This document shows positions 22,169-53,022 of a stretch of DNA of 64,000 bases, in pieces; positions within the stretch are counted from its first letter, which is position 1; the number at the start of each line of letters is the position of its first letter. Source of the DNA: Hyposmocoma kahamanoa (lineage: Eukaryota > Arthropoda > Insecta > Lepidoptera > Cosmopterigidae). The stretch lies in contig NW_020653855.1 of the NCBI RefSeq assembly GCF_003589595.1, positions 2,065,441 to 2,129,440 of the forward strand, in the 5' to 3' direction. A model generated the notes under the pieces. That model was given only the letters and a program-made list of their open reading frames with translations. It made no database searches and was not told the DNA's origin. The position numbers and the translations under genes are program-made.

Positions 22169-23347
22169 TTATAATAAATACATTTTTTCTAAGATTTTCA
22201 TGAACTCCGCAAATGAATAGTGACCTTGTTTATTACCCTTAGCATCTTTCAACTTTAAATAAACTTTATGAATAGAATTGTCCTTTGTTATTCTGCCTCC
22301 ATTTCGAATTTGTTCCGTTGATAGATAAAGATATTTTATTTTCAAATAATAATCTTTGCCATTGTACCATTTTTCAAAAACAACTTTACCCCCAATTGGA
22401 AACTTTTCGTTTTGACCTACTAAATCATAAGGCTTAACACCTATAGCTGTTAAAACAGAATTTATATTCGAATCGTGACCGATTAATAACGTGAACTTAT
22501 ATTTTTCCTCCAAGAAAACCTGTTTAATGTAGTTCAATAACGGTCTCGCGACGTTTTTAGCTATCGTTGGACTACCAAAGCGTATATTTTGATTCTCCCG
22601 TGTCACCTTTGCCAGTAGTTTCCAGTCTTTCGGCTGCATTAGCCCCCATCCAATTTTCGACAAGTTTTCTCCTTCGTAGTAGGCCATTAGCAGTGCATCA
22701 GCGACCTCGTTCCCAATTTTAAAACGTCTCATGACATTTGGTTCGTCTCCGTATATCAGAGTAACGTTATCATTTTCTTCTGTCAAATCACATAAGTTAT
22801 TAATTTTGCATAAATCTGAGGTTTTGATATCCAGAATCGTATTCAATCTCATGTAAGCGTCTTGAAGATCCAACTCGTCCAATTTCTCTTGCATTTCTTC
22901 GCGCGCTATAGTTTGAAAACTCTCCGTATCATTTAGTACGATTGGATGAAAAACTGGATCAGTTGTTACATTAGATTTATAATTAACTGTTATATTACAA
23001 TGTTTAAAAGCACTTCTAATGAAATGCTCTGCTGTCTTTCTTGTTCTTTGATAAGCATTAGCATATACGTGTACTAAAGTATCGTCGGGACACTCATTTG
23101 TTAGCAACTTTTCTTTCCTCAAATATTCCGAAAAGTGTTCACCCAAATATTCCTCTAACAAAGCGCCTTTGGTGGTTAAAAATCCGTTCTCTTGAATCCA
23201 TTTGAGTGGCTCTTTTGAAGTGTAAATTTTTAAATTTACTAGAGGAGTTCTTATATTATGCCTTCCTAGAACTAGCACTTGTTTTAGTTGGTCACCTGAT
23301 ACACAATGCGCAATTACCATGATGAAGAATAATATTTTTGCCGGCAT
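22169..23347 (-). CDS. agp: Agp-like glucose-1-phosphatase paralogue A (horizontally acquired family)
   Basis: Single exon, 392 residues. The start MPAKILFF (ATG at 23347) gives a signal peptide ending near residue 18 (HCVSG), as in B-D. An in-frame ATG at 23497 would add 50 residues, but it lies upstream of the predicted initiator and hides the signal peptide, so it was not used. Motifs: R29-H30-N31 with IRTPL (phosphohistidine nucleophile), QRTRKTAEHF at 100-109, DP at 130-131, H291-D292 in GHDSNI (acid dyad) and PIGGK at 317-321. Cysteine pairs 86/117 and 180/186 are kept; the C-terminal pair is gone (A and Y instead). Sequons at N118, 126, 139, 194 and 228 suggest a glycosylated secreted protein. 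The whole length follows bacterial periplasmic Agp, which cleaves glucose-1-phosphate and some inositol phosphates. Substrate here is inferred. Nearest relative by eye is B. Confidence 0.95.
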   Translation of the reverse strand: MPAKILFFIMVIAHCVSGDQLKQVLVLGRHNIRTPLVNLKIYTSKEPLKWIQENGFLTTKGALLEEYLGEHFSEYLRKEKLLTNECPDDTLVHVYANAYQRTRKTAEHFIRSAFKHCNITVNYKSNVTTDPVFHPIVLNDTESFQTIAREEMQEKLDELDLQDAYMRLNTILDIKTSDLCKINNLCDLTEENDNVTLIYGDEPNVMRRFKIGNEVADALLMAYYEGENLSKIGWGLMQPKDWKLLAKVTRENQNIRFGSPTIAKNVARPLLNYIKQVFLEEKYKFTLLIGHDSNINSVLTAIGVKPYDLVGQNEKFPIGGKVVFEKWYNGKDYYLKIKYLYLSTEQIRNGGRITKDNSIHKVYLKLKDAKGNKQGHYSFAEFMKILEKMYLL

Positions 23348-23472
23348 TATTTCAACGTTACACTTCTTTGGAAGTGCTTTGAATTTTGTAGACCGGAAAT
23401 AAATTTTCGCGAGCGTTAACCGCGCGGTATCCGTTCGGCTGTGACTACCGGTTCTCTCTGCTCGCAGCGCTT

Positions 23473-23531
23473 GACTGAGTGATAAAGAAACAGACAAATT
23501 TATTACGCTGTTAACGCTGCATATCTTATCT
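23473..23531 (-). promoter_or_regulatory. predicted core promoter of agp-like gene A
   Basis: On the minus strand ACTCAGTCAAGCGCTG carries an arthropod initiator TCAGTC (plus 23473-23478; +1 near 23476), 129 nt before the chosen ATG. Genes B and C have the same TCAGTCA(A/C)GC-like sequence at a similar place. A double GATA site (AGATAAGATA, plus 23522-23531) lies about 50 bp upstream. There is no good TATA box. Confidence 0.5.
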
Positions 23532-24404
23532 TATTAATTTTGTTATAATTGTGCGACTGATTTAAGTTTATAGTAAACTAGCCATCGTTCTCTGGACTTC
23601 ATCCGCGTAAAATGAAGGATATTCAAGTGTTTAGGGAATATAATCTTCTACAGATGTAAAAAAAAATTGAAAAATTGCTATAACTTTTTTGCTTTCATCT
23701 TATTGGTATGAAGTTTGAACATAGTTTCTTACAATTGTAAGGACCTTTAACCCAATCTAATTGCATAAATCTAGTGCTGATAGTTTGAAAGATTTTTTTC
23801 TTGTTCCAAATACGTTACGTTACACGCTATTTATTTATTTATTTATTTATTTATTTTAAACACTAAGAATATTACAAAAATATATATACATCACATCATA
23901 TATATATACATTTGCAATATTTTATAACATTGAATGTTGACTATGGCGTAACTGACAAAATATAATATAATTTTTAACGTATCTCGCATGACATTTATGA
24001 ATTGTGACTTGCACTATATATACTGTTCACTAAGGAATTTAGGTTTTTAACGCCTTCAAAACGCTTCGAAGTAACACGAAAGTTTTTATTAATTGAAACT
24101 AAAAAGTCATACAAAATAATATTATCTCAAAAGTGCAAGTTTTATTCATATATATATATCAATATCAATATAAAATCTTGTCATTAATCTAAACACCATA
24201 AATCAAAAAGGCTATTAAATTAAAACAAAGCATATAAAATTTTAAAATAATCATAATTATCAAGCGTATGTAAGTAATTTTTTTTGCCGCCAGTCTTGGG
24301 TTCGTTTGCCTTTGCCTTTCACTTGCTATATCCCATGCTTTATTTTCCCTTGAGTTTTCTTTTTCTGACCAAATAATTTATATCGAGTTCTTAGGTTTTC
24401 TTGA

Positions 24405-24478
24405 AAAAATAGGTCGGTTTGTTTGAAAAAACAAATATACGCGATTTAAATCCGGAAAAATAGTTTCATTTCCTACAA
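24405..24478. repeat. half copy of the 9031-9190 foldback element
   Basis: GGTCGGTTTGTTTGAAAA to AAAAATAGTTTCAT matches one arm plus centre of the element at 9031-9190. The other arm is missing. Confidence 0.6.
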
Positions 24479-24774
24479 ATAATTTATTTTCATTTGTTTT
24501 CTCACGATACTTTTCATTTTCCACCCCGATCCTTTCTTACCAAACATTTGGCTACAAAATTCCTTTTTCTTCATTGCGTTTTTTCTTCCGTTCCTGTTTT
24601 TTCATTACCAGCTATTTTCCTTTTGCTTCTTTCAGTCGATTCAAGTACATAGTTCTCAACATCTAGTATGTCATCTTCGATGTTTTTATTGCACTCACCT
24701 AGATCTTGATGATCGATGTCAGGATATCAATTTTGTCAACATATAAGGGAGGCTCAGATAGTCTTGAACGTACT

Positions 24775-25215
24775 TTTTTTTATGTAATGAAGGAGGCAAA
24801 CGAGCAGACGAGCCACTTGATAGGAGGTGGTCATCGGCGCCCATGGACATTTGCAACATCAGATAAGCTGCCTATGCGCTGCCAGCCTTTGAGAACCCTG
24901 TAAACGCGATTTTTGAAGAACCCCATGTCATAGCGCAAGGGAGATGCTACAGGAGGAAGATCATTCCACATTTTGCAGGTTCGAGGAAGGAACGAACGAG
25001 ATGCCCGCGTGATCTTACAATGCCAGGCATCTAAGATGTGGGGATGGACTCTACTCTTTTGGCGGGAGGTGCGATGGTATAACCGAGACGGTGGCACCAG
25101 TTCGAAAAGTTTCTTAGAGCACTCCCCATTATAAAGACGGTAGAACACACACAGAGAGCCAACGTCTCTCCGTAGGCTAAGGGGCTCCATACCCATATAC
25201 GTACTGCTTGGGAAT
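24775..25215 (-). pseudogene. jockey-like retrotransposon, ORF2 C-terminus, 5'-truncated
   Basis: Minus-strand frame to 24831: PLSLRRDVGSLCVFYRLYNG, ELVPPSRLYHRTSRQ, SFLPRTCKMWNDLPP, FKNRVYRVLKG, VANVHGRR. This is the C-terminal tail common to lepidopteran jockey-type elements. A diverged copy lies on the + strand at 36110-36515. Only the last 120 or so codons and a short 3' end remain. Confidence 0.8.
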
Positions 25216-25334
25216 CACACTATCGTTACATAGTTTTTTCAAATCATGGTATTTTTTTGCTGAAATAGTTACTGGGTTTGCATAAAGCCTTTTTTTATTG
25301 ATTGTATTGGTAATGGTTGATTCTTCTTCTTCTT

Positions 25335-25870
25335 AAGGTGCCTCTCCAACTAGTGAAGATTGGCAGTCAGCTTAGCATATTTATCTTTATTCCTGGCGAG
25401 GCTGAATAGTTGAGCGGCACTCGCTATCCCAGTCCACTCTCGTATGTTCCTCAGCCAAAATTTTTCCTGCGACCAGCTTTCCTTTTACCAGCAACTTTTC
25501 CCATAATTATTAGTTGCAGAAGCTCGTATTTGTCACGTCTAAGTACACGACCCAAATATGCAACTTTTATCTGTTTGATGATCTGCAAAAGTTTACGCTT
25601 CTGTCCAACGAGTCGCAGAACTTCTTCATTGGTGACATTCTGAGTCCTTATCATGGACGACATTCTTCTGTAGGCCCACGTTTCAAATGCTTCAATATGT
25701 TTCCTGAGATTCTCTTTTATTGTCCAGGCCTCACATCCGTATAGAAGTATTGGCCAGATGTAACACTGAATAAGTCGAGTGTGCAAAGGAATCTTAAGAC
25801 AACGGCAACATAATACTTTCCTCATAGAATTAAAAGCACTCCTGGCAACTACAATGCGGGTTTTAATCGT
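25335..25870 (-). pseudogene. non-LTR retrotransposon reverse transcriptase C-terminus
   Basis: The frame contains MRKVLCCRCLKIPLHTRL, YGCEAWTIKENLRKHIEAFE, WAYRRMSSMIRTQNVTNEEV and YLGRVLRRDKYELLQL, then a Lys/Arg-rich end. This is the end of an endonuclease-bearing non-LTR element of a type widespread in insects; the exact clade (RTE- or CR1-like) is not decided. Catalytic YADD region absent. Confidence 0.75.
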
Positions 25871-26750
25871 TGATAATGAATCTTTACTGCATCTTTTTTC
25901 TTTTAGTCCGGTTATTTTCTTTTTTGTATCATGGTCCAGTGGAATTTTTTAATATTCAGCGTCTTCTTTCATAGAGTATTTAATTTTCATGACGTTTAAA
26001 TTTGTTTTTTTTTAAAGTTGCAATCCTTATGTCCCTTAATTTCAAGTTTTTATTAGGCCTAGTTCTAGCCGTAAATACTTGTCCAGTAATTAATTATTTG
26101 TCAACCAGTAAAATCGACGTAGCCTAAGACTTTAACATCGTATGGGCGCGGAAATTTTAGCGCGGTAAGTATGAATGTAGCCCATTTGTTTAGGACTCCA
26201 CAAAATAAGGTTTAGTATCTAACGTTCGTTGACACTATGCATGGAGTCAACAGGCATGTACGTATGTCCTGGCAATACATAGTTCACTTGAATCGCTAAG
26301 TCAATCACCTATATAATCTTACCGTCAAATATGTGTAAAAAATATCATAGTTTAAGTGCATATTCACGTTAAAGAAATGTAATTAGAATACAATTATTTC
26401 ATTTTCTAACCAGTACGAAACTAAGGTTTATATCAAAACTTGTTATACATATAAGTATAAGTAAGTATTTTTTGGGTTTAAAATATTACTAGGGAAGTAA
26501 ATTCCATTTCCATTTAACTTAAATATCCTGTTTCGTAATTTTTATTCCACGTTTGAGTAACAAGTTACTGTAATAACATAAAAATATTAATCTAAGTTCC
26601 ATTTCTTGAAAAAAAGATACGATATTAGTTAAAGTAACTAATAATTATTTATTCTAAATAACTGTGAGTTTAATGTAACAGATAAAAGTTTTAGCGATTA
26701 CTGTATTGCAACCATAGATATAACAACACAACGTTTTTGTAGGCATAGTC

Positions 26751-26802
26751 ATTACGTTAATTTAGTAGTAAGACCTTGGGTCTTACTACATTAACGTAAC
26801 CT
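26751..26802. repeat. near-perfect 24-bp hairpin
   Basis: The left arm includes TTAGTAGTAAGACC and the right arm GGTCTTACTACATTAACG, with one mismatch and a 3-base loop (TTG). It could be a tiny foldback remnant or a transcribed hairpin; nothing nearby decides. Confidence 0.55.
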
Positions 26803-27035
26803 TCCTTATCATACACTAAATTTTTGTGTTATTTTACCAATGAATCTTCGTTTTTTTGTAAGGTAACCGCTATTTTTTTCAAGATATAATTGTTTTAACA
26901 GCACCATTCGATTGGGCCAAATTTCCTGTCGAACTGTATATATAACTCATCTTCGCCCATTTGGTGGTTACGTTAATTGATCCTACAACTGACGATATAT
27001 GTTCATGCGTTTAAAACACGAGTAGCCGCAATACA

Positions 27036-27918
27036 GTACACAAAACATTGTAGTTAGAAACGAAAAATTGAATCTTGTGGATACAGTTGTATTTCTAGGT
27101 ATAACGTTAGATGCTAAATTGCAATGGGGTCCCCATATAAGTAAGTTGTCAAAACGGCTCAGCTCTGCAGTGTACGCGATTAAAAAAATAAGGAAACTTT
27201 CAGACGTCGAAACCGCGAGATTGGTTTACTTCAGCTACTTTCACAGTCTAATGACATACGGCATTTTGCTTTGGGGTAATGCCGCCGATATCAATAGAAT
27301 CTTTGTCCTGCAGAAACGTGCAGTTAGGGCAATTTACAATCTGGGCCCCAAAGTATCTTTGAGAGATAAGTTTAAGGAAATTAACATTCTTACGCTAGCC
27401 TCACAATACATTTATGAAAATATAATTTATGTTAAAAGGAATAGTAATTTCTTTATGAAAAATAGTGACAGACATAACATTAATACGAGGAATAAAAATA
27501 AACTAGCTTTTCTTGATAGTCGTCTTCACAAAGTCAAACAATCATTTAAGGGGCAATGTATACGCTTCTATAACAAGATTCCGGTTGATATACAAAATTT
27601 GCCTTTCACGAGGTTTAAAACTATAGTGAAACAAAAACTTTATACTAAAGGTTATTATACAACTTCTGCGTACTTGGATGACAAAAATCCGTGGTAGTAA
27701 CCCGTTTAGCTCATGGAGGTAGTCTCAATCTGATGTTTCAAATAAAAAAATATTGTAAATGTTATTTACAAAGAGCAATCCCTAGAGTTTGTTGCTCATT
27801 CTTCTCAGGGGAATCTGCCTGACGAATGAGCGGTAGAGTTTAACCATTGTGACGATTTCAAGTGTAATAATGCTTACCTATGAAATAAAGATTATTTTGA
27901 ATTTGAATTTGAATTTGA
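27036..27918 (+). pseudogene. jockey-like retrotransposon 3' end with coding remnant
   Basis: An open frame of about 210 codons (to TAG at 27695-27697) carries FLGITLDAKLQWGPHI, SSAVYAIKKIRKLSDVETAR, YFHSLMTYGILLWG and IFVLQKRAVRAIY, the thumb and C-terminal region of a jockey-type reverse transcriptase. A 3' UTR follows and ends in the simple tail TTGAATTTGAATTTGAATTTG at 27896-27917. It starts abruptly around 27036, so it is 5'-truncated, as such copies usually are. The longest undisrupted fragment of this kind in the window. Confidence 0.85.
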
Positions 27919-28009
27919 GCAATCGCCTTGAAAACACGTCTGTGATGGATCCACGCTTTGTTGCACTTTTATATTGGCATAGAAGACGCAAACGGCTTTG
28001 TTGCCGGAA

Positions 28010-28260
28010 GAACAGCAGCTTGATTTTAATTGCCTCTCCCGATCGGAAACTGCGTGTTTTCCGAGTCGAGGCGCATAATTGCGATTCACAAGTGAAGAGA
28101 AACTTTTGACATTTCTAATCGGAACAATAGTTGATGTAACTGACAAATTAGAAAGATATAATAGGAATCAGGTTCTTCTTCTCGCTCAGAAACCCGTCTG
28201 ATCTCGAGACTACCCGATCAGATCGATTCCAATTTGAATCAAAATTAGGACGTAGAAGAT
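28010..28260 (+). repeat. repeat family G copy
   Basis: GCCTCTCCCGATCGGAAACTG, GACATTTCTAATCGGAACAA and CGAGACTACCCGATCAGATCG match the other copies. Confidence 0.65.
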
Positions 28261-28624
28261 ATTGGGTTCATCCAATGAATCAAGAAGCAGTGCGTACACA
28301 CATTTGAAAATTGGTATGGTATTAATAAAATTATGCGTGCCTTCCAAAAGATACTTCTATACTAGACGCCGCTTATTCGATGACTGTTCGATGTGTGAAA
28401 GAGATGCATTAATAGGTACTATGCGCCACTGCACGTGCACACCGAATACGTTAAAGTTCATTCGATTTGTTTGACAAGTCCGTTGCGTATTCGATAAACT
28501 TATTAAGCTGTGTGCGTTTTTTTTGCAAAACAAACACCGTGTGAATTCAAATAAATGGCCTAACCATTGCGCCACTGTTTATTCGGTAAGATTTATACTG
28601 TAAAAAATCGTTCAAACGGCATTA

Positions 28625-28810
28625 TAAAGGTGCTGGTGAAATTAAAGGCACATGGATCTTGTCAACTTATGTCTCAAGGTGACTGGCAGTGGCAGTGCCC
28701 CTAAGATCTTTGCGATTTAAAGCTCTGAGTGGCACTGTAAATGTGATGGATAGACGTGTCGCTTACCACCAGGCGCACGATTTGTCGGTCCCATCACTTG
28801 GTATTGTGTA
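28625..28810 (+). repeat. repeat family F copy, 5' part missing
   Basis: AAGGTGCTGGTGAAATTAAAGG to GCGCACGATTTGTCGGTCCC, same order as the other copies. Confidence 0.7.
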
Positions 28811-28969
28811 TTCTTGTAAGTATTATTGTAATGACATAAATAAAAGTGCTTTTGACATTCACACATGGCTTTATTGTACATACCAAAGAGTGCGAAAAAT
28901 CATGACTGTGTACAAAAATAATCTATGTTGTTTTTTTACTCTCCATTCAAATTACTCGAAATGAGTATA

Positions 28970-29320
28970 TTAGGACAATACGTCGCAAACTGCACGCTGC
29001 ACAAGGCCTTATGAAAGTGTCGGCGTGTGGCAATGTAAGGTCTATTTTTAGGTTAAGCTCAATTCTAGCTCAAAAATTACGCGTATTAGGTTTGCGTTGT
29101 CTATATAATAAACAGCTCATTCCACAGCTATGGAACACGGAGAAAAAGTACAGTCGATGCTTGAAGATATCCGATATCAATCGCCTATTAAAAGAATGTG
29201 TAAAACATACCACGAAAGAAATGCTAGCAGTCCTGATTTAGATACATTTGGTGATAATAATCGATATTATCTTTCAAAAGTAAATTCATTAACTAAAATA
29301 AGTTTAATTATCTAAGTTCC
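28970..29320 (+). other. unrecognised repeat or pseudogene with short frames
   Basis: Overlapping frames (29011-29241 and 29130-29315) contain Cys- and Lys-rich peptides with no family I can name. The boundary between the two frames looks like a shifted single frame, so it may be a decayed retrotransposon end. It is not called as a gene. Confidence 0.25.
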
Positions 29321-29429
29321 TATACTCTACTTCTCAATAGGAATACAGTATTCTATTGCTATGTGATTTAAATTAGTATTCATTGCGGGTAGATACATAA
29401 AAAAGTAATAAAATTTATAGAAAATTTCA

Positions 29430-29935
29430 TCGAGGTCCGTTTCCTGGGGCATCGTGCCCAGAAGGCTGGCAACATTTACCCTTCGAATTGCTAAACTTAC
29501 TTCTTGGCGAAAATAACTGCCAGCATTGTGGTCACCGGCGGCTTCTACGAGGCGATCCGACAGCTCAAACGCTAGAAGTTTCGCCTGTGGCCCCTAGGGA
29601 CCCAGGGTTTCAACCGCAAAAGGCCTGTAGTACTGAGCAAGGTTGGCGTATTTGAGCTTTTTGCGGTACTCGGCCGCTCTGGCCACAAGGCCTGCGCCGC
29701 CCACGCTTGCAAGGACATGGGCGGGGGCTACAGTGTCCACACAGGTTGCGTCCCACACTTGCTGTCTCCCTGGCTTCCATGGTTCGATAGTCATACCGTC
29801 AGGTATCTTACAGTCACTGCGACAGATGCCAGTGGGCTCGAGATCTGAAAGTATCTTAGCGCTGGTGAAGGCCTTTACGATAATGCTATTGAGCGCTACG
29901 TGTACGGATATGTGGCCTGCGCTTTGAGTACATGA
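29430..29935 (-). pseudogene. retroelement polyprotein C-terminal remnant
   Basis: On the minus strand WDATCVDTVAPAHVLASVGG, AEYRKKLKYANLAQYYRP, FAVETLGP and, after a break, SKFSNSKGKCCQP-like sequence correspond to a C-terminal block found after reverse transcriptase in many invertebrate non-LTR elements. Frames are broken at about 29594. Confidence 0.65.
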
Positions 29936-32509: not shown

Positions 32510-33691
32510 CTATAACAAATTGTTTAAAATTTTCATAAACTCAGTAAATAAAGTGTGACCATGATTATTAACCTCAACATCTCTCAATTTCAAATAAACT
32601 TTATGTACTGGATTATCCTCTGATATTCTGGCTCCATGTCTTATCTGTTCCGTTGATAAATAAACGTATTTTATTTTCAGATAATAGTCAACGTCGTCGT
32701 ACCACTTTTCGAATACAACTTTACCTCCTATAGGAGTATATTCGTTTTGACCAGCTAAATCATATGGTTCAACACCTATAGAAGTTAAAACAGAATTAAT
32801 ACAGGAATCGTGTCCAACTAACAAGGTGAATTTATGTTTTTCCTCCAAGAATACTTGTTTAATGTAGTTTAATAATGGTTTTGCTATATGTTTTGCTACA
32901 TGTGTACAACCAAAGCGTACCATTAAATGCTTCTTTGTCAACTTTGCCAGTAGTTTCCAGTCTTCCGGCTGTATTTGTCCCCACCCAATCTTCGACAAGT
33001 TTTCTCCGTCATAATAAGCCATTAGTAGTGCATCAGTGATCTCATTCCCAATTTTTAAAGGTCCTATAACATTAGGTTCATCCCCATATATCAAGGTGAT
33101 ATTATCATTTTCTTTTGTCAAATCACATAAGCTATTAACTTTGCATAAATACGAGGTTTTGATATCCAGGATCGTGTTCAATCTCATGTAAGCGTCTTTA
33201 AGATCCATTTCGTCCAATTTTTCTTGCATTTCTTTACGCGCTATAGTTTGAAAACTCTCCGTATCATTTAGTATAACAAGATAGAAAACTGGATCACTTG
33301 TAATGTTAGGTTTAACATTAATTGTTATATTACACTGTTTAAAGGCACTTCTAATAAAGTGCTCAGCTGTCTTTCTTGTTCTTTGATAAATATTAGCATA
33401 TACGTGAACTAAAGAATCGTTTGGACATTCATTCGTTAGCAACTCTTCTTTTCTCAAATAATCAGAAAAGTATTCACCCAAATACTCCTCTAACAAAGCG
33501 CCTTTAGTGGTTAAAAAGCCATTCTCTTGACTCCATTTGAGCTGCTCTTTTGAGGTATACATTTTTAAATTTGCTAGAGGAGTTCTTATGTTATGCCTTC
33601 CTAAAACAACCACTTGTTTTAGCTGGTCACTTGCTACATTATGCACAGTTAGCATCATTAAAAATAAAAGCTTTGTCAGTATTATTTTCAT
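32510..33691 (-). CDS. agp: Agp-like glucose-1-phosphatase paralogue B (horizontally acquired family)
   Basis: Single exon, 393 residues. The start MKIILTKLLF (ATG at 33691) gives a signal peptide ending near HNVAS (residue 21). An in-frame ATG at 33790 adds 33 residues but lies only about 9 nt after the predicted +1 and would bury the signal, so it is rejected. R32-H33-N34 nucleophile motif, QRTRKTAEHF, DP at 133-134, H294-D295 and PIGGK at 320-324 are all present. The dyad motif reads GHDSC instead of GHDSN, and C262 is another extra cysteine. Pairs C89/C120 and C183/C189 are kept; the C-terminal pair is lost. Sequons at N121, 129, 142, 197 and 231 mirror A. It is divergently oriented to C across 7 kb. 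Expected to be a secreted sugar- or inositol-phosphate phosphatase; activity inferred from kept catalytic residues. Confidence 0.95.
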   Translation of the reverse strand: MKIILTKLLFLMMLTVHNVASDQLKQVVVLGRHNIRTPLANLKMYTSKEQLKWSQENGFLTTKGALLEEYLGEYFSDYLRKEELLTNECPNDSLVHVYANIYQRTRKTAEHFIRSAFKQCNITINVKPNITSDPVFYLVILNDTESFQTIARKEMQEKLDEMDLKDAYMRLNTILDIKTSYLCKVNSLCDLTKENDNITLIYGDEPNVIGPLKIGNEITDALLMAYYDGENLSKIGWGQIQPEDWKLLAKLTKKHLMVRFGCTHVAKHIAKPLLNYIKQVFLEEKHKFTLLVGHDSCINSVLTSIGVEPYDLAGQNEYTPIGGKVVFEKWYDDVDYYLKIKYVYLSTEQIRHGARISEDNPVHKVYLKLRDVEVNNHGHTLFTEFMKILNNLL

Positions 33692-33795
33692 ATTTAACTT
33701 TTTTAACACTGGTATTAATTTTGTTTCTCTAGTAAACGTACATACTGCAGTACCCGTACACTTGTGACTAAAATTTCTTTCCGACCACAATGCGT

Positions 33796-39537: not shown

Positions 39538-39745
39538 ATAATAATAATAACGCACACACTCAACATAGTACTGCACTAGGGAAACCATGTGTCGCGGGTG
39601 CCATGGACACACACTTATAACACCACAAATGACACCCAAACTCACGAAAGAAATAAATATAGGCCATACAAATATTTCTCCGGGTACGGGAATCGAACAT
39701 GGGACCTTTGCGTGGCAGTTGTTAACCGTTCGGCCACGGAGTCAG
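39538..39745 (-). repeat. SINE family C copy
   Basis: Head at the right (minus strand TGACTCCGTGGCCGAACGG), with GGTCCCATGTTCGATTCCC, and ending at a short AAT run. Frames at 39587-39843 are repeat-derived. Confidence 0.8.
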
Positions 39746-40841: not shown

Positions 40842-42026
40842 ATGCAGTCAAAGATTTTTTTCTTAATTATAGTATTTGTACATTGTCTAGCAGATGACCA
40901 GTTGAAACAAGTGATAGTGTTAGGTAGGCATAATGTAAGAACGCCTTTAGTGAATTTGGATGTTTATAGTTCAAAAGAATGGCTCAAATGGGCTGAAGTA
41001 CCTGGTGCCCTAACCACTAAAGGGGCTTTGTTAGAAGAGTATTTGGGTGAATACTTTTCTGATTATTGGACAAAAGAAAACTTGCTTACGAATGAATGTC
41101 CAAACGATAATGCAGTTCATATATTTGCAAACTCTGAGCATAGAACTAGAAAATCAGCTAAACACTTCGCTAGAACTGCTTTTAAAAAGTGTAATATAAC
41201 AATTCACTTGCTATCTAATGATGATATTCCACTTTTTGTAACAATCGTACTAAATGATACACAGGATTTTCAAACTACGGCACTTGAAGTAATGCAAGAT
41301 AAATTAAACGAGTTTAATCTTACAGACGTTTACACCAAATTAAATTCGATACTGGATATTGAGAACTCGGATTTGTGCATACTTAATAATATATGTGATT
41401 TAACGACAGGAGAGAATAATATTAGCGTGAATGTCGGACAAGAGCCAACTATTTTTGGACCCTTCAAAGTTGGCTACGAAGTTGTGGATGGACTTCTAAT
41501 GGCCTATTATGACGGAGTGTCAATGTCGAAGATTGGATGGGGACAAATACAGCCAGAAGACTGGCCAGTACTAATGGAAATGACAAAAGCGGACCAAAAA
41601 CTGCGTTTCGGTTGTCCTGAAGTCGCCAAACATATGGCAAAACCTTTATTAGGGTACATTGATTATATATTCAAGGTGAGCCAAATTAATGTCAGCGTTC
41701 TGGTTGGTGACGATTCGAATATAATGTCAATTTTGGCATCTTTAGGCGTCAAACCTTATAATTTAGAAGATCAGCCTGAAATGTCTCCTATAGGGGGTAA
41801 AGTTATATTCGAAAAGTGGTACAATGGTGTGGATTACTACTTGAAAATTAAATATGTTTATTTATCGACTGAACAGATTAGAAATGGGGCCAGAATATCA
41901 GAGGATAATCCAGTACGTGAAACTAATTTGGAGTTACAAGATGCTATAGTTAATGAACAAGGCCACTGTACATTTGCACAGTTTATGAAAATTGTAGAAA
42001 ATGTTTTGTTGAATGTTCCTACCTAA
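40842..42026 (+). CDS. agp: Agp-like paralogue C, with a changed catalytic dyad
   Basis: Single exon, 394 residues, signal peptide MQSKIFFLIIVFVHCLA. R29-H30-N31 with VRTPL and HRTRKSAKHF (100-109) are kept. The dyad that is GHD in A, B, D and E is GDD here: codon 290 (41709-41711) is GAC, so the His is Asp while the Asp proton donor (D291) remains. The substrate-loop DP is also absent (DDIPLF at 127-132). PIGGK (316-320) is kept. Cysteines 86/117 and 179/185 are kept, but only one (C376) of the C-terminal pair remains. In histidine acid phosphatases the HD pair is nearly invariant, so activity is likely reduced or altered. The frame is intact with no stops, so it is not a simple pseudogene. 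Sequons at N118, 138, 159 and 283. AATAAA-like ATTAAA follows at 42097. Confidence 0.95.
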   Translation: MQSKIFFLIIVFVHCLADDQLKQVIVLGRHNVRTPLVNLDVYSSKEWLKWAEVPGALTTKGALLEEYLGEYFSDYWTKENLLTNECPNDNAVHIFANSEHRTRKSAKHFARTAFKKCNITIHLLSNDDIPLFVTIVLNDTQDFQTTALEVMQDKLNEFNLTDVYTKLNSILDIENSDLCILNNICDLTTGENNISVNVGQEPTIFGPFKVGYEVVDGLLMAYYDGVSMSKIGWGQIQPEDWPVLMEMTKADQKLRFGCPEVAKHMAKPLLGYIDYIFKVSQINVSVLVGDDSNIMSILASLGVKPYNLEDQPEMSPIGGKVIFEKWYNGVDYYLKIKYVYLSTEQIRNGARISEDNPVRETNLELQDAIVNEQGHCTFAQFMKIVENVLLNVPT

Positions 42027-42096
42027 ATACTTTAGTAAAACCACAAGTTTTATATTTGTTACAGAATTCCACCTTTAATTTAGTTTAAATTGTTTT

Positions 42097-42102: not shown

Positions 42103-42149
42103 TTATACCTAAGCAAAGAATGTCCATATAAAAGAATACGTGACGAATT

Positions 42150-42400: not shown

Positions 42401-42409
42401 TGTAATACT

Positions 42410-43970: not shown

Positions 43971-43979
43971 ATAAGGAGG

Positions 43980-45446
43980 CGTACAATCAAGAGCACATCA
44001 AGCTTGACATTTTGTACTTTGTACCGTTCTTGTCGTAAGCGGCATAGAGTTAAATTAAGGTCTCAAGTGTCAAACTTGACGTGTTCTTGACCCTGTGCAC
44101 GGTACTTGCTCGGGGTTCTTTGCCGTAACGTGCGTCTTGGCTCCCTACAAATTCTTTTCTTTCTTTTATACGTGACAGGCAGATGCCATCTCTCTACTTG
44201 ATGTTAAATGGAAAGTGGAATCCAAACGAGAAGGAACCCAGTGCGGTGTTGATACAAACTGCCCTAGCCACCACAACCCTGCATGCCTGCAGCCACTGAA
44301 AGGGAGGTCCATTTGTCGAGTGTGGTGCCACCAAACTTTTTAGTTCGCGTTGGAATACCTACGGCAAGTCGTGAAAGGGTACGGCGACCAGCACTCGTGC
44401 TTCGGAGCAGGAAAGGGGAGGGCGGGATAAGGATGAGGTATATTCTGTTCCTTGTTTCGTTCATTGCATAGCCAAAAAACATTCGTTCATTTAAAAAATA
44501 CGGAGAAAAAGCTGTTCGAATCTGTGGTAAAACTTCGCGAGAAGTAACATTGTGGTAACAGTGCGTTGTGAAATCTTTATTTTATCAAGGTAAATGCAAT
44601 ATTTTATGTAATAACTACTATATTTTGTGTTATTTAAGGAATGATAAAGCTATTTACATAATTGGTTTTGTTAAATTCGTAGTAGTTTTATTGCTATCAA
44701 GCTCAAATACCGGCAACATAATTTTTGGCATTTTCATGGGATTTCTGTACAAATTTGCGCGGGGTGTGAAATATGAACCGTCATTAATTGACAGTTGAAA
44801 TTCCGTTGGCTGAAGGGTTAATGTTAAAGTCCCGTCATAGTACGAACGAAGTGAATGAATAGTCACAAAGCTGCCAATAAAACAGCATTATTTTAACATT
44901 ACAAATAAGCTTACTTAAAGCGTGTTATAGTACAAAAAGTCAATGTAAGGTTAAAGTAGTATTGTTTTAAGAGGTGGTGGTAGGCCCCCAGCTCTTTTGC
45001 ATCAGAACAGAATGTCTTCCGCTAAATTCTCACGAGTCTCGGGAAATGCTTCTGTTACCTGCATTATGCTACGAGAGGCGGCTGAAAAGTAATTTACCTA
45101 AGCATGAAGTAAAAGACGGCTAAGGCTACTTTTTCAATATGAATTTTATATTCTTATTCTAAAAATGTGTAAACAGGAAACGCACTTATTATGTTAGTTA
45201 TAAAAGGACGTAAGTGTATAAAAAATTGTTGCTCATTTTTAAACATTTTACTTTTTTCGTACGCGATTGAGTAGTCCACTTGCAAACAGCCCTATGTGAC
45301 ATTTTGTTTGGTATTTATTTTTTTGTCATCCGAGAGGTCCCTCGTGTTCATTTATCAAAAATTTGATCGTCAAATATTTCGGAGAAGATTGGTTTACATA
45401 CGAAATTCTTGAACTGTATACTTATATTAAAGGGCAAAAACAATCA
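43980..45446. other. unassigned interval
   Basis: No gene recognised. Frames of 60-76 codons at 44264-44482 and 44568-44798 have no family resemblance and are on overlapping strands or AT-rich. Confidence 0.35.
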
Positions 45447-45454
45447 GATGTAAC

Positions 45455-45676
45455 CATTGACTTACAAATAAATGGACGACGGGTCTAATACAAAAACCAC
45501 GAAAAAAATGTCCCAAGTCAACCTATTCGAAATTGAAATTGAATCGCAGTATCGCGCTGTCAGTAGAACAAATGAAGACTAAAGCGGAGTGTCGCGCTCT
45601 GTATACGATTTTAGCGCCTTAAAAGTGCGGACACTTTTTAGCGCGGACCCGACGTCCATATAATTGTAAGGCAATG
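45455..45676 (+). mobile_element. P/hAT-like MITE, copy 4, with 8-bp TSD
   Basis: 222 bp, flanked by exact GATGTAAC (45447-45454 and 45677-45684). It is the short form; the right terminal repeat has one change (GTAAGGCAATG). Confidence 0.88.
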
Positions 45677-46515
45677 GATGTAACCGAAGAAGAAGAAATG
45701 ACAGATACATTGATGGTTGACGAAGTGGATATAAGAGTTTAGAGGAAAATTAAAACTAGATTCAAGTTGTATTTTTTACTATTATTGTAACAAAACTAGC
45801 CCTGTTAGCATTGTGTTGTTGCAAAACTAGCTACGTTCATTCTGAACAATTACAAAACTAGTTATTTTGTTATTACTGTTGCAAAACTTTCTGTTTAATT
45901 TTTTATGGAAATAAATTAAAAAGTTTAATACTGTGATTTCGTTTCTTCGTCTCTTTTTTATCACAATTTTCAGATAATTAAAAAAGTACCATTTAAATTC
46001 CCGTTTTCGGAACAATAATTGTTTTTTAGTTTATAGCTTTTTTATCCACGCACATAACGCAGTTCGCTAGTGGACTACTTATTCATTTTGTCTATGCAAA
46101 GCGAAACGTAAACAAAAATTGACTAATTTAAAAAAGAACAAACAACTTATCGCGGTAGTGCCAAAAAGAGATTCAAAAGAGTTCAAAAAGGGGTCAAAGG
46201 AGATTACTTTCAACCGCATACATTTTCAGCTTTTGTTTTCTGAACGTTGCCTGACACACTGCCGTGCGTCTAGGTCTTTCCTAATTGATATGTATTTTTT
46301 TAGAAACCAAAAAGAAAAAAACATAAATGGAATTCTGTTAGTCGAAAATGAAGCTAAACATTAACGAATAATGGAGAACATATTTCTGGATTAATGATTA
46401 TTGAAAAACGAATTTTCGTTTGACATTACAAAAACAAAAATGGCATTTAATAAAAACCAGTAAGTTTTTAATGTTCGGGTGGTAGCATGGTAGCGGGAAA
46501 TTTTGTTTTTTTTTA

Positions 46516-46570
46516 TGATAAAATTTTTCTAAATTCATTTTTAAAACATTACTTTCAGGTGCGATCAGTG
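46516..46570 (+). promoter_or_regulatory. predicted initiator of agp-like gene D
   Basis: GCGATCAGTGAACG has TCAGTG at 46565-46570 (+1 near 46567), 129 nt before the ATG. TGATAA is at 46516-46521. Less like the A/B/C set than those are to one another. Confidence 0.4.
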
Positions 46571-46695
46571 AACGAAACGAACGAAAATAATTATTCTCTG
46601 TTATTTACGCATAACGAACAATGGAGAATTGACTTTGCAAAATGTATCCTAAATAAATACGAAAAATATTGAATCAAAAAATTTAACTGTCAAGA

Positions 46696-47880
46696 ATGGC
46701 ATTCAAGTTTATATATTTAATACTTCTAATGTTGTATAGTGTTACCGGGGATCAATTAAAACAAGTGGTAATCGTCGGAAGACATAACATAAGATCACCT
46801 CTGAGAAATTTGTCACAGTATACACAAAAGGAATGGACCAAATGGAATACAGAACTGGGATTTTTGACTACCAAAGGGTGTTTATTGGAAGAGTACTTAG
46901 GAGAATATTTCTCTGATTGGTTGTTAAAAGAAAAGCTACTAACAACTGAATGTCCAAATGATACATCAATCCACGTTTATGCAAATGCTCCTCAAAGAAC
47001 CAGAAAAACAGCTGAGCATTTCATTAGAAGTGCTTTTAAACAGTGTAATATAACTATAAATTTCATGGGAAATGTTACCATGGATCCTATGTTTCAACCA
47101 TTTTTTCACAAGCCTCTACTAAATAGTTCCGAAAATTTCGTAAATTTCGTAGATATTCTTAAAGAAATGAAAGAACGACTTAATTCAATAAAACTTGAAG
47201 ATGCTTATGTTAGATTGAACACTATTTTGGATTTTAAAAGCTCCAATTTGTGTAAAGATGAAGGCAAATGTGATTTAACAAAATTGCCGAGCGTTGTAAG
47301 TTTAAAATATGAAAAAGAACCGGTAATTGTTGGCGCTTTAAAAATGGCAAGTGAAGTAGTTGATGGATTTCTAATGGCATATTATGATGGAGTAGAATTG
47401 AACAAAATCGGTTGGGGTGAAATGCACCAAAATGACTGGAAAATTCTAGGGAAAGTTGTACAAGAAAACCAAAACGTACGCTTCAATTATACACAATTTG
47501 CCAGACACGTTGCAAAACCATTGCTAAACTATATAAAACAGGAATTCTTAGATGAGAAGCATAAATTTACATTATTAGTTGGCCATGATTCTAATATAAA
47601 CACTATTCTGGCATCTATGGCTATCAATCCTTATGATTTAGATAATCAAAATGAAAAATCACCAATAGGTGGAAAGATTGTTTTTGAAAAGTGGCTAGAC
47701 GAACAAAGTGAACGTTATTTTTTGAAAATAAAATTCGTTTACTTAACATCGGATCAGATAAGAAGTGGCGCCAGAATTACAAAGGAGAATCCACCACGTA
47801 TTGTTATTTTGGAAATGCAAAATTGTACCATTGATAATAGAGGCTACTGTCCTTTTGAACATTTTCTAGAAGCTCTATAG
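46696..47880 (+). CDS. agp: Agp-like glucose-1-phosphatase paralogue D (horizontally acquired family)
   Basis: Single exon, 394 residues. Signal peptide MAFKFIYLILLMLYSVTG, with mature DQLKQV start as in A and C. R29-H30-N31 with IRSPL, QRTRKTAEHF at 100-109, MDP at 129-131, H297-D298 in GHDSNI and PIGGK at 323-327 are all intact. It keeps all three cysteine pairs of the bacterial enzyme: 86/117, 186/192 and 377/385 (NCTIDNRGYC, compare GCPIDADGFC in Agp as I recall it). A 6-7-residue insertion follows the DP loop (FFHKPLLNSSEN). Sequons at N118, 126, 143 and 264. Of the RHN copies it looks nearest to the ancestral form and is the best candidate for a working enzyme. ATTAAA at 47916. Substrate (glucose-1-phosphate or phytate-like) is inferred. 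Confidence 0.95.
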   Translation: MAFKFIYLILLMLYSVTGDQLKQVVIVGRHNIRSPLRNLSQYTQKEWTKWNTELGFLTTKGCLLEEYLGEYFSDWLLKEKLLTTECPNDTSIHVYANAPQRTRKTAEHFIRSAFKQCNITINFMGNVTMDPMFQPFFHKPLLNSSENFVNFVDILKEMKERLNSIKLEDAYVRLNTILDFKSSNLCKDEGKCDLTKLPSVVSLKYEKEPVIVGALKMASEVVDGFLMAYYDGVELNKIGWGEMHQNDWKILGKVVQENQNVRFNYTQFARHVAKPLLNYIKQEFLDEKHKFTLLVGHDSNINTILASMAINPYDLDNQNEKSPIGGKIVFEKWLDEQSERYFLKIKFVYLTSDQIRSGARITKENPPRIVILEMQNCTIDNRGYCPFEHFLEAL

Positions 47881-47915
47881 CCCGTTCACTAAAACATCTT
47901 TTAAATTTCATAAGT

Positions 47916-47921
47916 ATTAAA
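47916..47921 (+). terminator. poly(A) signal candidate, gene D
   Basis: ATTAAA 36 nt after the stop codon of gene D. Confidence 0.4.
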
Positions 47922-47952
47922 TTTGTTCCTTATTCCTAAAGGTGTTTAAATC

Positions 47953-48173
47953 AGAAGTTTTTTTTTTTTTTTTTTCAACAATCAACATTTTTTTCAACTA
48001 GGGAAACCCTGTGTCGCGGGTGCTATGGACACACACATAGACAACCACAAATTACACCCAAACTCACAAGAGAAATAAAAGTAGGCCATACAAATATTTC
48101 TCCCGGCCCGGGAATCGAAGCTGGGACCTCTGTGTGGCAGTCCGGCATGGTAACCTTTCGGCCACGGAGGCAG
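47953..48173 (-). repeat. SINE family C with poly-T (poly-A) end
   Basis: The minus-strand head TGCCTCCGTGGCCGAAAGG at the right, GGTCCCAGCTTCGATTCCC, and a T run at 47958-47977 that is its A-rich end. It begins about 75 bp past the stop of gene D. Confidence 0.8.
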
Positions 48174-48512
48174 TTTAAAGTTAATTATAAATGTACAGAT
48201 TTTATTCTGAGATTAATTTGATAAATTATTTGCGACCTCGCACGGTTGCATTTCGGGAAATTGTAGAGTATGTCAATTTATTTTGCAATATATTTCCTTA
48301 AATTACTTTTCACCAGAGCGAGACCTAAAATAACAGTATTTCCCGTTGGTCAGATTGATGGTCAGACTGGTCTGGACTTGTTATTGTACAGATTGATTCA
48401 GGTCAGGATGTCATACAAAAATGTATAATGAGGCTCAAAACAGTTTTGCATTTATAACGCAGTAATTAAATAATTACTGTGATTGTAGACTTCTTTTTAT
48501 TTGAATCTGTTT

Positions 48513-48605
48513 GACTACCTTCGTGGTCGAGTGGCTTGTATATCGGCTTTCATGGTCTTGCCATCTCTGAGGTCCTGGGTTTGATCCCCAGCCGGACCAA
48601 TGCTG
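48513..48605 (+). repeat. tRNA-like SINE head, family D
   Basis: ACTACCTTCGTGGTCGAGTGG (A-box-like), then GGGTTTGATCCCCAGCC (B-box-like), with no proper anticodon arm or CCA context. A SINE rather than a tRNA gene. Confidence 0.6.
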
Positions 48606-49103
48606 AAATAACGTTTCTTCTTCTTTTAACAACGACGGTACTACAAATTTCAATTTCAAAATCAAAGTGCCTTAACTTTGGCATCAGAGCAATGTATGTA
48701 GTATGTTCGATGAACGTATGTGATGTTGCCTACCTATGCTTTACCTGTTTGATGACAAGTATTATAATTTTATAAATAGCTTTATAAATATTCTTTTTGC
48801 TTACAATTTTTATTAAGTTCTCATTATTATTTATTATATAATAATTTATTATAATATAAACGATATAGGAAAGATTTTCAAGGGAATGAGCAATTCCAAT
48901 TAATTGTATGGGAAAATATAATTATATTCCATTCATTATTCACAAGTCAATAACGAAATTTGCAAAAATGTAATCTATTGTTTGTTTTTTGTTTCCTTAT
49001 TACAAACAAACTATAAGACGTCTTAATCAAATGAAAAATTTTGCTTTTGTGGCCTCCATTTAAGGTTTAATTTCGCATTATATTGGACATAACTTTTGCT
49101 GTT

Positions 49104-49227
49104 GGGCTAGCACCACAGGGCGCGACTTCCGCGAGAGCGACATAACGCGCGAGATAATCCTATTCTCGCACAGAGATCTCACGCTTTACGTCGCTCTCTC
49201 GCTAGTCGCGCCCTGTCGTGCTAGCCC
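49104..49227. mobile_element. 124-bp GC-rich MITE
   Basis: GGGCTAGCACCACAGGGCGC at the left pairs with GCGCCCTGTCGTGCTAGCCC at the right; the next part (GAGAGCGAC / GTCGCTCTC) also pairs. It can fold over nearly its whole length. No clear target duplication. Confidence 0.7.
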
Positions 49228-49374
49228 TACTGATCGTGATGACAAAAACATGAAGCAAAAAATTAGCAGGAATTTGGTTTCCTAGTATGAAAACATTACG
49301 ATCAAAATAGCGCGATTCGTATAAATTAATTTGCTAGCCTTTTTGATATATGGCGTAGGACGGGACACATGTGG

Positions 49375-49560
49375 AGCAAGACATCGACTGATTCGCCAAT
49401 CAGTCAATCAGCTTCTTTTGCCCTGTCGCAAGGTGGGTCGACGACATAGTACGCATCGCGGGTCGTCAATGGATGCGGCTAGAACAGGACCGTGATGGAT
49501 AGCTCAAACTGCGGGAGGCCTATACCCAGCAGTGGGTGAAATCAGGCTGTGGATGATGAT
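49375..49560 (+). pseudogene. non-LTR retrotransposon 3' end
   Basis: RWVDDIVRIAGRQWMRLEQD, then a stop, then LREAYTQQW and GATGATGATGAGG. This is the end of an element family whose other fragments are at 55045-55100 and 62938-63265. Confidence 0.65.
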
Positions 49561-50274
49561 GAGGATTTGATACATTCTGCATAAGCCCTTTTAAATCGTA
49601 TAATGTTTTAACGTACCTATTTGATTCTCCTACTTGAAAAAGTAAACTATAAGGATTTGGGGAATTTGTCATTCGAGTAATGAAACGGCCTCGTGAACTT
49701 CATAGATTGTAATATTTCATAATTGTACCAAACAATTCCGAACAATTTGATAGCTCTGACTTAAGTGACAATCAACCAAACTAAAACACTATCTAAAATC
49801 TTTGGCAAGTGTAACACTCTCTATGGCGACTCTCGTCCAAAGAGAATCCCACAGTGAGCCTATAATAATAGGCGACGTCTAAAGCCGCCACAGGGGTATA
49901 AAAAATCTAGTTTTTTTTCTAGACGATCACTCCAAATTTTTTTTTTATATGTAAAAATATACGTGCGCATATGACCTCAATCTAACCTGATGGAAAGTGA
50001 CGATGAGGCCGATAATGGAGCATGCAAACCTTATTTAGGTGTGCATGCCTGTTCACTCTCGCTTTGGAAAGGGCCTTAGTTATAACGTTCAGGGAATAAG
50101 CTGCAGGTAGTAAATTCCACTCCATAGCCTTCGCCACGTAAATGTACCCACGCCATTAAGGGTGGTAGGTGGAAGAAGAAATAAATAGTGCAATTCCATC
50201 GCATACTAGAGTTATATATCCTGTATGATTCCAATAAGTACACTTGCATCTACATTCATAGGCACTACTCAGAA

Positions 50275-50525
50275 AAATCAGGACGCTGGTTTGGATTCAA
50301 ATCAGAATCGACCCGATTGGGTAGTCCCGAAATCAAATGGATTTCTGAGCGAGACGATTAACCTGATTCTTACTATATCTTTCGAATTTGTGAGTTAAAT
50401 CAACTACTGTTCCGATTAGAAATGTCAAAAGTTTCCAATCGGCCAGTTGTGAATCGCAACTACGCGCCTCAATTCGGAAAAGACACAGTTTCCGATCGGG
50501 AGAAGTAATCAAAATCAAGCTGCAG
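50275..50525 (-). repeat. repeat family G copy
   Basis: On the minus strand CCGATCGGAAACTGTG, GACATTTCTAATCGGAACAG and GGACTACCCAATCGGGTCG match the other copies. Confidence 0.6.
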
Positions 50526-50599
50526 AACCAGTTTCAAAAAGGTTCATTTTCCAAATTGATTCTGTACAAGATGTACAAAATCAATTTGGACGGTTGCAT

Positions 50600-50670
50600 C
50601 CTCGCCTAGCCTCGGTGGAATAACGGTTTGAACACAGTGCAAACCGCTATGCCACCGAGGTAGTCATTGG
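50600..50670 (-). repeat. tRNA-like hairpin
   Basis: GCCTCGGTGGAATAACGGTTT pairs with AAACCGCTATGCCACCGAGG. On the minus strand the start (GACTACCTCGGTGGCATAGC) resembles the heads of other lepidopteran SINEs. Confidence 0.5.
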
Positions 50671-51728
50671 TGAAATTTAAATCCTTTAAGAAACAAGTTG
50701 TAATACTTACTTTTATTATTTCTTACAAGACATAAAAAAAAATAATGATTATATTTTAATAGCACATTAGAACGTTATTTTAGATAGCAATAGATAGATC
50801 ATCATTACATTTTTTTTCGTTCCGTCCGCTATTCGCTTCCGCTCCGTTTATTCATGCAAACACGGCTTTAAATAAGGTGTGTTCACGAATCTAGTTTGCA
50901 AGAAAAGACCGTACGCAGTTTTTAACCGCGTGCTTTAATTTTTTTATTAGGTTTTCTATGATAGAAGTTTTAATTAAATATCTTAATTTCTTAGAAGTGT
51001 TAATAAAATATTCTAAATACTTAGTTCATACCAAGAACTGGAAACATTTTATCATTTTCCTTATTAATAGTAGAATCAATCCGTCTTAAACTGGGAATTA
51101 ATAATAATATTGGTTTTTAGTTAATATTATGATGTTTTACTATCATTTTAAATAATTACGTCGATGTGCTAATTAATTATTATGATCTTCTTCTTTTAAA
51201 TATTATGGCCCCATCGAAATAATCAATGATTTTGCCAATGTCAAGTAAAAATAACTATGTACGGTAGTTTAGTATTATTATAAAAATTATACAAAAAAAT
51301 GGCGATTTCGCCAATGTCCTGTGAGTTTGTAATTAAAATTACAGCATTCATAATTTAACGTTCGTTGTAAACACATCTTTGGTTGTCAAATTGACATCTT
51401 TGAAATGCGTCCTTGGTGGTTCTTATGTTTACATTTCAAATTTAGAAAACGTGGCTTAAAATATTAATTTCCAATAACAATAAAGTGATCCTAATCTATA
51501 AATCTAGTCAGAATAATAATGAGCTGAATTCTTTTGATAAAGTCTTTTAACTAGTACACTTTTAGGTTATGTATGCTTATACTTATACCACTTACTTTCA
51601 TAATTTATTAAGATTGAGTAATTATTTATGCTTATATACCTATCATACAACCACGTGACTGTATGTCGAAATGGACTGTGCCAAACAAACACTATTTTTT
51701 TTACACTGTGACGAAAGCACGTATTTGT

Positions 51729-51734
51729 TCAGTC
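51729..51734 (+). promoter_or_regulatory. possible initiator of agp-like gene E
   Basis: TTGTTCAGTCTTTGAAAC contains TCAGTC, 47 nt before the ATG. The short distance and the lack of other shared sequence with A-D make this weaker. Confidence 0.3.
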
Positions 51735-51777
51735 TTTGAAACAAGTTATTTTTATATAGTGATTTTGCTAAAAAAAT

Positions 51778-53022
51778 ATGAGTGTAGTGTACAGTACAGT
51801 GAAAACCATATTCAACATAGGTTTTATATTAACTTATATAGGCATTTCAGTCTACGTGTTTGTATATGGGTCAACCAGTGACTATAATAATATTACATTA
51901 AAACAAGTGTTTATATTAAGTCGACATGGTGTCAGAACACCTTTAGCCAAAGATCTAGATCAAATGACACCAAAAAAGTGGCCAGACTGGAATAAAAAAC
52001 CTGGTTATTTAACAGAAAAAGGAATTTTACTAGAAGGTTATATGGGAAAGTATTTTTCCGAGTTGCTGAATAAAGAAAACCTGTTGCCAGATTATTGTCC
52101 GAAAGAAGAAGAAATTTTTATCTATGCAAATGTTAAACAAAGAACCATAGAGTCAGCAAAAGCTTTTGTCAATAAAGCCTTTTCTGGATGTAACATAACA
52201 ATACACCAAAAAGATCACAATGGTATTGATCCTGTATTCAATGTAGCAATACATAACTCATCTTTAAGTTTTCAGAAACTTGCCTTAGAACAAATGTATG
52301 AACAATTAAGACCATTAAATTTGAACAAATCATTTGAAGATATGTCACATATTTTAGATTATAAACTATCTCAACTTTGTTTAATAGACAATGAATGTAA
52401 TTTAATCACAGACTTGAACAAAATAATTGACGTTCAAGTAGGATTCAAGCCTAATATAAAGGGACCGCTAAAAATTTGTAATTCAGCTATAGACGCTTTT
52501 ATTATGGAAAACTATGAAGGTTTTCCTTTTAACAATGTAGCGTGGGGTCAAATGACAGAGTCAAAATGGCAAGACATAATAAATCTAAGTCGCAAATATC
52601 ACAATGTGATCTTTAACACAACTTTAATTGCAAAAGATTTATCGTTACCATTATTAAATTACTTTAGGAACATATTTCTCAACGATAATTCAACTAAAGT
52701 TACCTTATTAATGGGCCACGATGCTAATATTTACACTTTGATTAACAGTATGAGTTTCAAACCATATTTTTTACCGGAACAATATGAATTGGCACCAGTT
52801 AGTGGTAAAATTGTATTTCAAAAATGGTTCGATGAGGTGAAGAAGAAAGATTTATTAAAAATAAGTTACGTATATCAATCTACTAAACAGTTAAGATCCG
52901 GTATTGAGTTGAGTTTATGGAATCCACCTCAGTTTGTCACATTGGAGTTACATAACTGTAAAATTGATGACAAAGGCTATTGTTTGTGGGATGATTTTGT
53001 TAAGTTTTTGCATACCTTGTAG
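51778..53022 (+). CDS. agp: Agp-like acid phosphatase paralogue E (divergent, RHG motif)
   Basis: Single exon, 414 residues, the longest of the five. The N-terminus has 10 polar residues, then a hydrophobic stretch (about 11-31), which could be a long signal peptide or a membrane anchor. R49-H50-G51 with VRTPL: Gly instead of the Asn found in A-D and in bacterial Agp. QRTIESAKAF (121-130), DP at 151-152, H314-D315 in GHDANI, and VSGK instead of IGGK near 341-344. All three cysteine pairs remain (107/138, 201/207, 394/402). The C-terminal part (KIVFQKWF, YVYQSTKQL, VTLELHNCKID) is the most Agp-like in the cluster. Sequons at N38, 139, 160, 183, 280 and 304. RHG occurs in most histidine acid phosphatases, so substrate choice may differ. 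AATAAA at 53171. Confidence 0.95.
   Translation: MSVVYSTVKTIFNIGFILTYIGISVYVFVYGSTSDYNNITLKQVFILSRHGVRTPLAKDLDQMTPKKWPDWNKKPGYLTEKGILLEGYMGKYFSELLNKENLLPDYCPKEEEIFIYANVKQRTIESAKAFVNKAFSGCNITIHQKDHNGIDPVFNVAIHNSSLSFQKLALEQMYEQLRPLNLNKSFEDMSHILDYKLSQLCLIDNECNLITDLNKIIDVQVGFKPNIKGPLKICNSAIDAFIMENYEGFPFNNVAWGQMTESKWQDIINLSRKYHNVIFNTTLIAKDLSLPLLNYFRNIFLNDNSTKVTLLMGHDANIYTLINSMSFKPYFLPEQYELAPVSGKIVFQKWFDEVKKKDLLKISYVYQSTKQLRSGIELSLWNPPQFVTLELHNCKIDDKGYCLWDDFVKFLHTL

Follow-up and report, generated by a model that had tools for sequence, protein, structure and literature searches.

It has previously been reported that a bacterial glucose-1-phosphatase gene, agp, was transferred to Bombyx (Zhu et al. 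2011, PMC3116507; Li et al. 2011, PMC3252269). In the second of these papers six tandem Agp genes were placed on Bombyx chromosome 23, and all the candidates detected there were intron-free. A 2017 review (PMC5704228) listed the Agp transfer for seven Lepidoptera and cited Sun et al. 2013 for ancient transfers and duplications in Lepidoptera. Here we describe a window of 64,000 nucleotides, bases 2065441-2129440 of an 8.76-Mb contig, from the cosmopterigid moth Hyposmocoma kahamanoa (genome paper, PMC11373647; assembly of 728 Mb in 2727 contigs). Five single-exon Agp-like genes, g1 to g5, were located within its positions 22169-53022. An initial annotation of this DNA had supposed that the transfer might be known, which was correct for Bombyx since 2011, and that the clustering might be less so, which the six-gene tandem array of Bombyx contradicted. 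Thus, both were already known, in another species. Indeed, the Bombyx mori genes BGIBMGA011199-011204 are bacterium-derived, intronless and tandem on one chromosome, like the Hyposmocoma cluster. However, the Bombyx mori type was described as keeping the conserved catalytic residues (Li et al. 2011, PMC3252269), whereas g3 of Hyposmocoma was without one of them.

When set against passages of the Bombyx papers, two things were new here. The first was a division of the family into two classes, A and B, that differed at position 196 and came from trees made in this work. The second was the loss of a catalytic histidine in g3-type genes whose protein was retained. Agp literature on a split at position 196 or on a pseudoenzyme loss was absent among the insect and lepidopteran matches listed, as judged from titles and abstract openings, and this was a weak negative with few subscription papers covered. 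We assigned a probability of about 0.7 to the whole account, namely that there was one entry, a split into classes A and B, a retuned class A and a pseudophosphatase in g3.

The genes appeared as long open frames at 22169-23497(-), 32510-33790(-), 40842-42026(+), 46696-47880(+) and 51778-53022(+), and the coding parts of g1 and g2 were counted from the Met common to the other copies. The genes, and the altered codon of g3, were as follows (residue numbers are those of E. coli Agp, by alignment).

22169..23347, minus strand: g1, Agp-like, class B, 392 residues; RHN and GHD kept, Glu at 196
32510..33691, minus strand: g2, Agp-like, class B, 393 residues; RHN, GHDSC
40842..42026, plus strand: g3, Agp-like, class B, 394 residues; GDD, with Asp for the HD-motif His; predicted pseudophosphatase
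41709..41711, plus strand: g3 codon GAC (Asp), which was CAC or CAT in g1, g2, g4 and g5 and corresponds to E. coli Agp His289
46696..47880, plus strand: g4, Agp-like, class B, 394 residues; catalytic residues and all six cysteines kept
51778..53022, plus strand: g5, Agp-like, class A, 414 residues; RHG, GHDAN, Lys at the Glu196 position, six cysteines

The initial annotation had described five complete intronless genes, and long single-exon frames were found at all five places. It had also counted three orientation changes or inversions, but the strand order - - + + + contained one switch. Its colinearity with Agp from the RHN motif to the last cysteine pair held only in part. RHN was present in g1-g4 and replaced by RHG in g5, and the last cysteine pair was lost in g1 (A/Y) and g2 (V/T) and half-lost in g3 (A/C). 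Overall, its observation was confirmed in part, with such details corrected, and its interpretation was supported. The window contained no N bases, and the guanine-plus-cytosine (GC) content of the genes was 31-36% (26-33% at third positions). When the whole assembly was queried with g4 or Providencia Agp, only the places of g1-g5 matched, each without inner stops.

All five proteins scored above the gathering score of 23.6 for the Pfam family His_Phos_2 (PF00328), with 58.2, 60.4, 57.6, 59.6 and 69.9 bits for g1 to g5. Their best NCBIfam model was glucose-1-phosphatase (the equivalog NF007553), with 360.7, 359.2, 334.2, 381.8 and 411.1 bits. Since these values were under the cut-off of 425 bits, we named g1-g5 Agp-derived and not Agp equivalogs. 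The catalytic RHxxRxP, Arg94 and HD motif were present in g1, g2, g4 and g5 (with Gly for Asn19 in g5), the HD-motif histidine was absent from g3, and Glu196 was present in g1-g4 and replaced by Lys in g5. The nearest solved structures were bacterial Agp and phytases, both by sequence (g4) and by fold (g3 and g5). The model of g3 had a predicted local distance difference test score (pLDDT) of 93.7 and lay within 1.8 A of E. coli Agp over 375 residues. In comparison to E. coli and Enterobacter Agp (PDB 1nt4, 3ntl), g3 and g5 were 34-39% identical over the aligned fold. The moth proteins differed from these by Lys196 in g5, Asp289 in g3 and the damaged last cysteine pair of g1-g3, and they would be secreted from an animal cell. 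Human prostatic acid phosphatase and LPAP6, animal histidine acid phosphatases of the PF00328 clan, share fold and clan with the moth genes. By their nearest solved structures, g3, g4 and g5 did not belong with the animal multi-exon enzymes. Both the curated family model and the tree placed g1-g5 closest to bacterial Agp, and the predicted folds of g3 and g5 did the same.

A first tree comprised 138 hand-picked rows, namely the five window genes, 113 of 229 proteins and 20 of 80 bacterial loci, and a careful tree comprised 88 proteins after 50 of the 138 rows had been removed by hand. In the careful tree, 68 rows (the five window genes, 40 proteins from named Lepidoptera and 23 further proteins) formed one clade beside Enterobacterales with support 100/100, and the adjoining bacterial group had support 94/79. 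The single horizontal transfer proposed earlier was thus supported, and the phylogeny suggested as its check grouped g1-g5 beside enterobacterial Agp. Intronless, on a host chromosome and in this one clade, the genes belonged to the bacterium-derived lepidopteran Agp family, and Agp has become a family of intronless, low-GC host genes with host repeats between the copies. The clade showed an early duplication into class A (29 rows including g5, support 99/96) and class B (39 rows including g1-g4, support 100/97). Each class contained gelechioids, pyraloids, noctuoids and papilionoids. Since both classes span these four groups, the duplication predates their split. A recent local expansion of all five genes was ruled out, as g5 grouped with class A of other moths. 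Judging from the trees, an enterobacterial-type agp gene would have entered a moth genome once, probably that of an early ditrysian.

The two classes were distinguished by position 196. On the 138-row set, Lys was found in 43 of 45 class-A rows, with Ala and Glu in the two deepest rows, and Glu in all 57 class-B rows, while the 36 bacterial and outgroup rows had Glu (33), Gln (2) or Ser (1) and never Lys. Over 322 sequences, which were the five window genes, 237 of 240 proteins (P0001, P0130 and P0231 being omitted as window duplicates) and all 80 loci, there were 250 Glu, 66 Lys and six other residues. The residue just after the HD motif was Ala in 43 of 45 class-A rows versus Ser in 51 of 57 class-B rows. 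Thus, lepidopteran Agps are one clade with two old paralogues differing at position 196, a feature that is new here. In the literature on Glu196/E196 and lepidopteran phytase, nothing bore on the class A/B switch in the titles and abstract openings among the matches listed. Lee et al. in 2003 reportedly named Glu196 and Leu24 as gating residues for substrate choice. By keeping Glu196, class B would probably still prefer substrates like glucose-1-phosphate. Class A, with Lys196, should favour more negatively charged ones such as inositol polyphosphates. We also observed that changes from RHN to RHG or RHS were scattered within class A, including g5 and crambid moths (N 31, G 11, S 3). Position 19 changed at least eight times on the whole tree, and the RHG of g5 was not class-wide.

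The second feature concerned the g3 lineage. At the HD-motif position, 317 of the 322 sequences had His, four had Asp (g3, P0134, P0136 and P0230) and one had Gln (P0239); the His18 position was gapped in five of the 322. The four Asp sequences formed one clade with support 100/100 in a tree with both catalytic histidines masked. P0134, P0136 and P0230 were 61-74% identical to g3, and P0134 had Pro for the nucleophilic His18 too. Conservation was tested against 39 hand-chosen class-B rows in columns free of gaps in the four, with P0239 and other class-B rows kept outside. Forty of the 43 columns invariant in these 39 rows were kept in all four Asp sequences. The remaining three were changed: His289 throughout the quartet, His18 in P0134 alone and a Trp in P0230 alone. 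Outside these 43 columns, 150 of 350 were identical in the four. Five control quartets lost 1/44, 5/48, 4/47, 2/45 and 1/44 invariant columns, none of them at H18 or H289. In an earlier version of the test, with three Asp rows against 12 near and 14 further rows, 49 of 51 columns were kept.

The g3 lineage had therefore lost a near-invariant catalytic residue and kept its fold and other invariant positions, and by its sequence g3 looks like a retained pseudophosphatase. The simplest reading is that it would be kept for its fold and surface and not for hydrolysis. Class B would have duplicated again on the line to Hyposmocoma, and one copy, the g3 lineage, would have swapped the HD-motif His for Asp. 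Purifying selection would have preserved the fold of the protein, which probably does no phosphatase chemistry; it might, for instance, bind phosphorylated ligands or pair with its active paralogues. As a separate observation, P0239 from Cydia splendana had AQD for GHD, apparently an independent loss of the HD-motif His, together with Asp196. The GH28 family of beetles was acquired by horizontal transfer. As described by Kirsch et al. 2019 (PMC6549527), inactive members of this multigene enzyme family are kept side by side with active ones, as g3 would be, and this work is a precedent for insect pseudoenzymes. On the other hand, enzyme, insect order and residues were different there, and the effect of the inactive members was measured.

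With regard to secretion, a hydrophobic stretch opened all five proteins. N-glycosylation sequons numbered 5-7 in each of g1-g5 versus 1.85 on average in 20 bacterial Agps, and their excess over shuffles was clear for g4 (P 0.007) and marginal for g2 (0.035) and g5 (0.041). Because of the hydrophobic N-terminus, the kept cysteines and the sequons, a secretory path is indicated, and both classes most probably consist of secreted histidine phosphatases, likely proteins of gut, saliva or blood. One Bombyx copy was reported to have extremely high head expression (Zhu et al. 2011, PMC3116507). Sugar phosphates would be the expected substrates of g1, g2 and g4 and more highly charged phosphates those of g5, and g3 would be expected to bind ligands without turning them over. 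The N-terminus of g5 (51778-51875) was longer and hydrophobic and was modelled as one helix spanning residues 2-31, which might anchor the protein in a membrane instead of being a cleaved signal.

Several alternatives were considered. Bacterial contamination or misassembly had nothing in its favour and was practically dismissed, given the low GC of the genes, the host repeat between them in a window free of N, the absence of any additional, bacterial agp copy from the assembly and the occurrence of the same family under many lepidopteran names. Separate transfers for class A and class B were considered very unlikely. It is true that g5 was about as near to Providencia Agp (45% and 47% in two comparisons) as to g4 (41%), but the two classes shared a single clade with support 100/100. 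With Morganellaceae as the second source, the sole family compared, a separate origin of class A or class B was about 84 log-likelihood units worse and was rejected by the approximately unbiased test (p-AU 2.2e-5 and 1.9e-7). It was also improbable, if a little less so, that g3 and its relatives were functionless genes decaying into pseudogenes. The lost catalytic residue would fit such decay, as would the ratio of nonsynonymous to synonymous rates (dN/dS) of 0.34 on the g3 branch (95% range 0.22-0.51) versus 0.15 (0.09-0.25) for g1, and a database of relatives restricted to open frames would hide decayed copies. However, the frames were full-length though up to 39% of residues differed, 40 of 43 invariant columns were kept, and the upper limit for g3 was 0.51.

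A less remote view, though still an unlikely one, was that all five genes encode ordinary active Agp-type enzymes, the Asp of g3 being tolerated and the family giving dosage or tissue variety. In agreement with this, g3 kept His18, both Arg of RHxxRxP, Arg94 and Asp290, and its fold was intact in the model. Nevertheless, His289 was nearly invariant among the 322 homologues, and the g3 sister P0134 was also without the nucleophilic His18. The following points weighed against the preferred account, with its retuned class A and its pseudophosphatase in g3. Because P0134 alone among the four Asp sequences had lost His18, and g3 itself retained it, residual or altered chemistry in g3 is possible, and H18P rests on one sequence. 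The dN/dS of the g3 branch included time before the change from His to Asp and was no higher than the value for g2 (0.31, range 0.17-1.21). P0134, P0136 and P0230 came from the 'lgn' source, an open-frame database in which broken relatives are invisible. P0239, a deep long-branched class-B row outside the 57, had Asp at 196. Finally, the sequon excess over shuffles was non-significant for g1 and g3, and conserved enzyme function of g1-g5 is not established by scores under the Agp cut-off.

Outside the genes, the following features were identified.

780..1004, plus strand: host gene exon with a Mod(r)/VPS37 domain (PF07200), left flank, by Pfam match
39556..39719, plus strand: interspersed host repeat within the cluster, with a further copy at 47978-48141

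The cluster had been described as bracketed by two host genes, and this applied to the left side, where the Mod_r/VPS37-type exon was found; the right flank had two frames without a family match. A host repeat lay between cluster genes at 39556-39719; a first look at the genome gave 6654 candidates for it, 40 of which were scored. Other repeat pairs between the genes, in both orientations, were 24777-24966/36321-36510 and 28015-28244/50290-50523. Four frames gave the impression of transposon remnants. One of them, 58176-58697(+), had an RNase_H match under the cut-off (E 0.0016), while 16728-17096(-), 27068-27697(+) and 57558-57953(-) had no Pfam match at E 0.1. Among the predicted proteins, P0121 was a 98% identical relative of g4. 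The NCBI model of g2 (LOC113232132, P0130, 512 residues) looked wrong, as by eye it matched g2 and then ran on in non-g2 residues. P0231, a predicted protein of 244 residues, spanned just the last 62% of g3 and also looked like a wrong model. Elsewhere, a 344-residue frame of PF00328 was seen at C647:5069400-5071600. Its residues presumably resemble the native animal phosphatase type, and it is probably a large exon of such a gene and not a second transfer. For the PF00328 match at C512, given as an open frame of 442 residues, no frame of 150 residues with a common start codon was found in the examined stretch.

It is possible, though we hold this only tentatively, that the host makes three uses of the transferred gene: a Glu196 class near the donor enzyme, a Lys196 class retuned to polyanionic phosphates such as phytate, and a binding-only pseudophosphatase maintained in the Hyposmocoma line. 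The two predictions, altered specificity of class A and a g3 free of catalysis, are open to test, each of the five proteins being about 400 residues long. The cluster lets one follow a transferred gene site by site, from one entry to an old duplication with a near-fixed change at what is likely a specificity position, and to a later copy in which two of three changes at invariant positions struck catalytic histidines.

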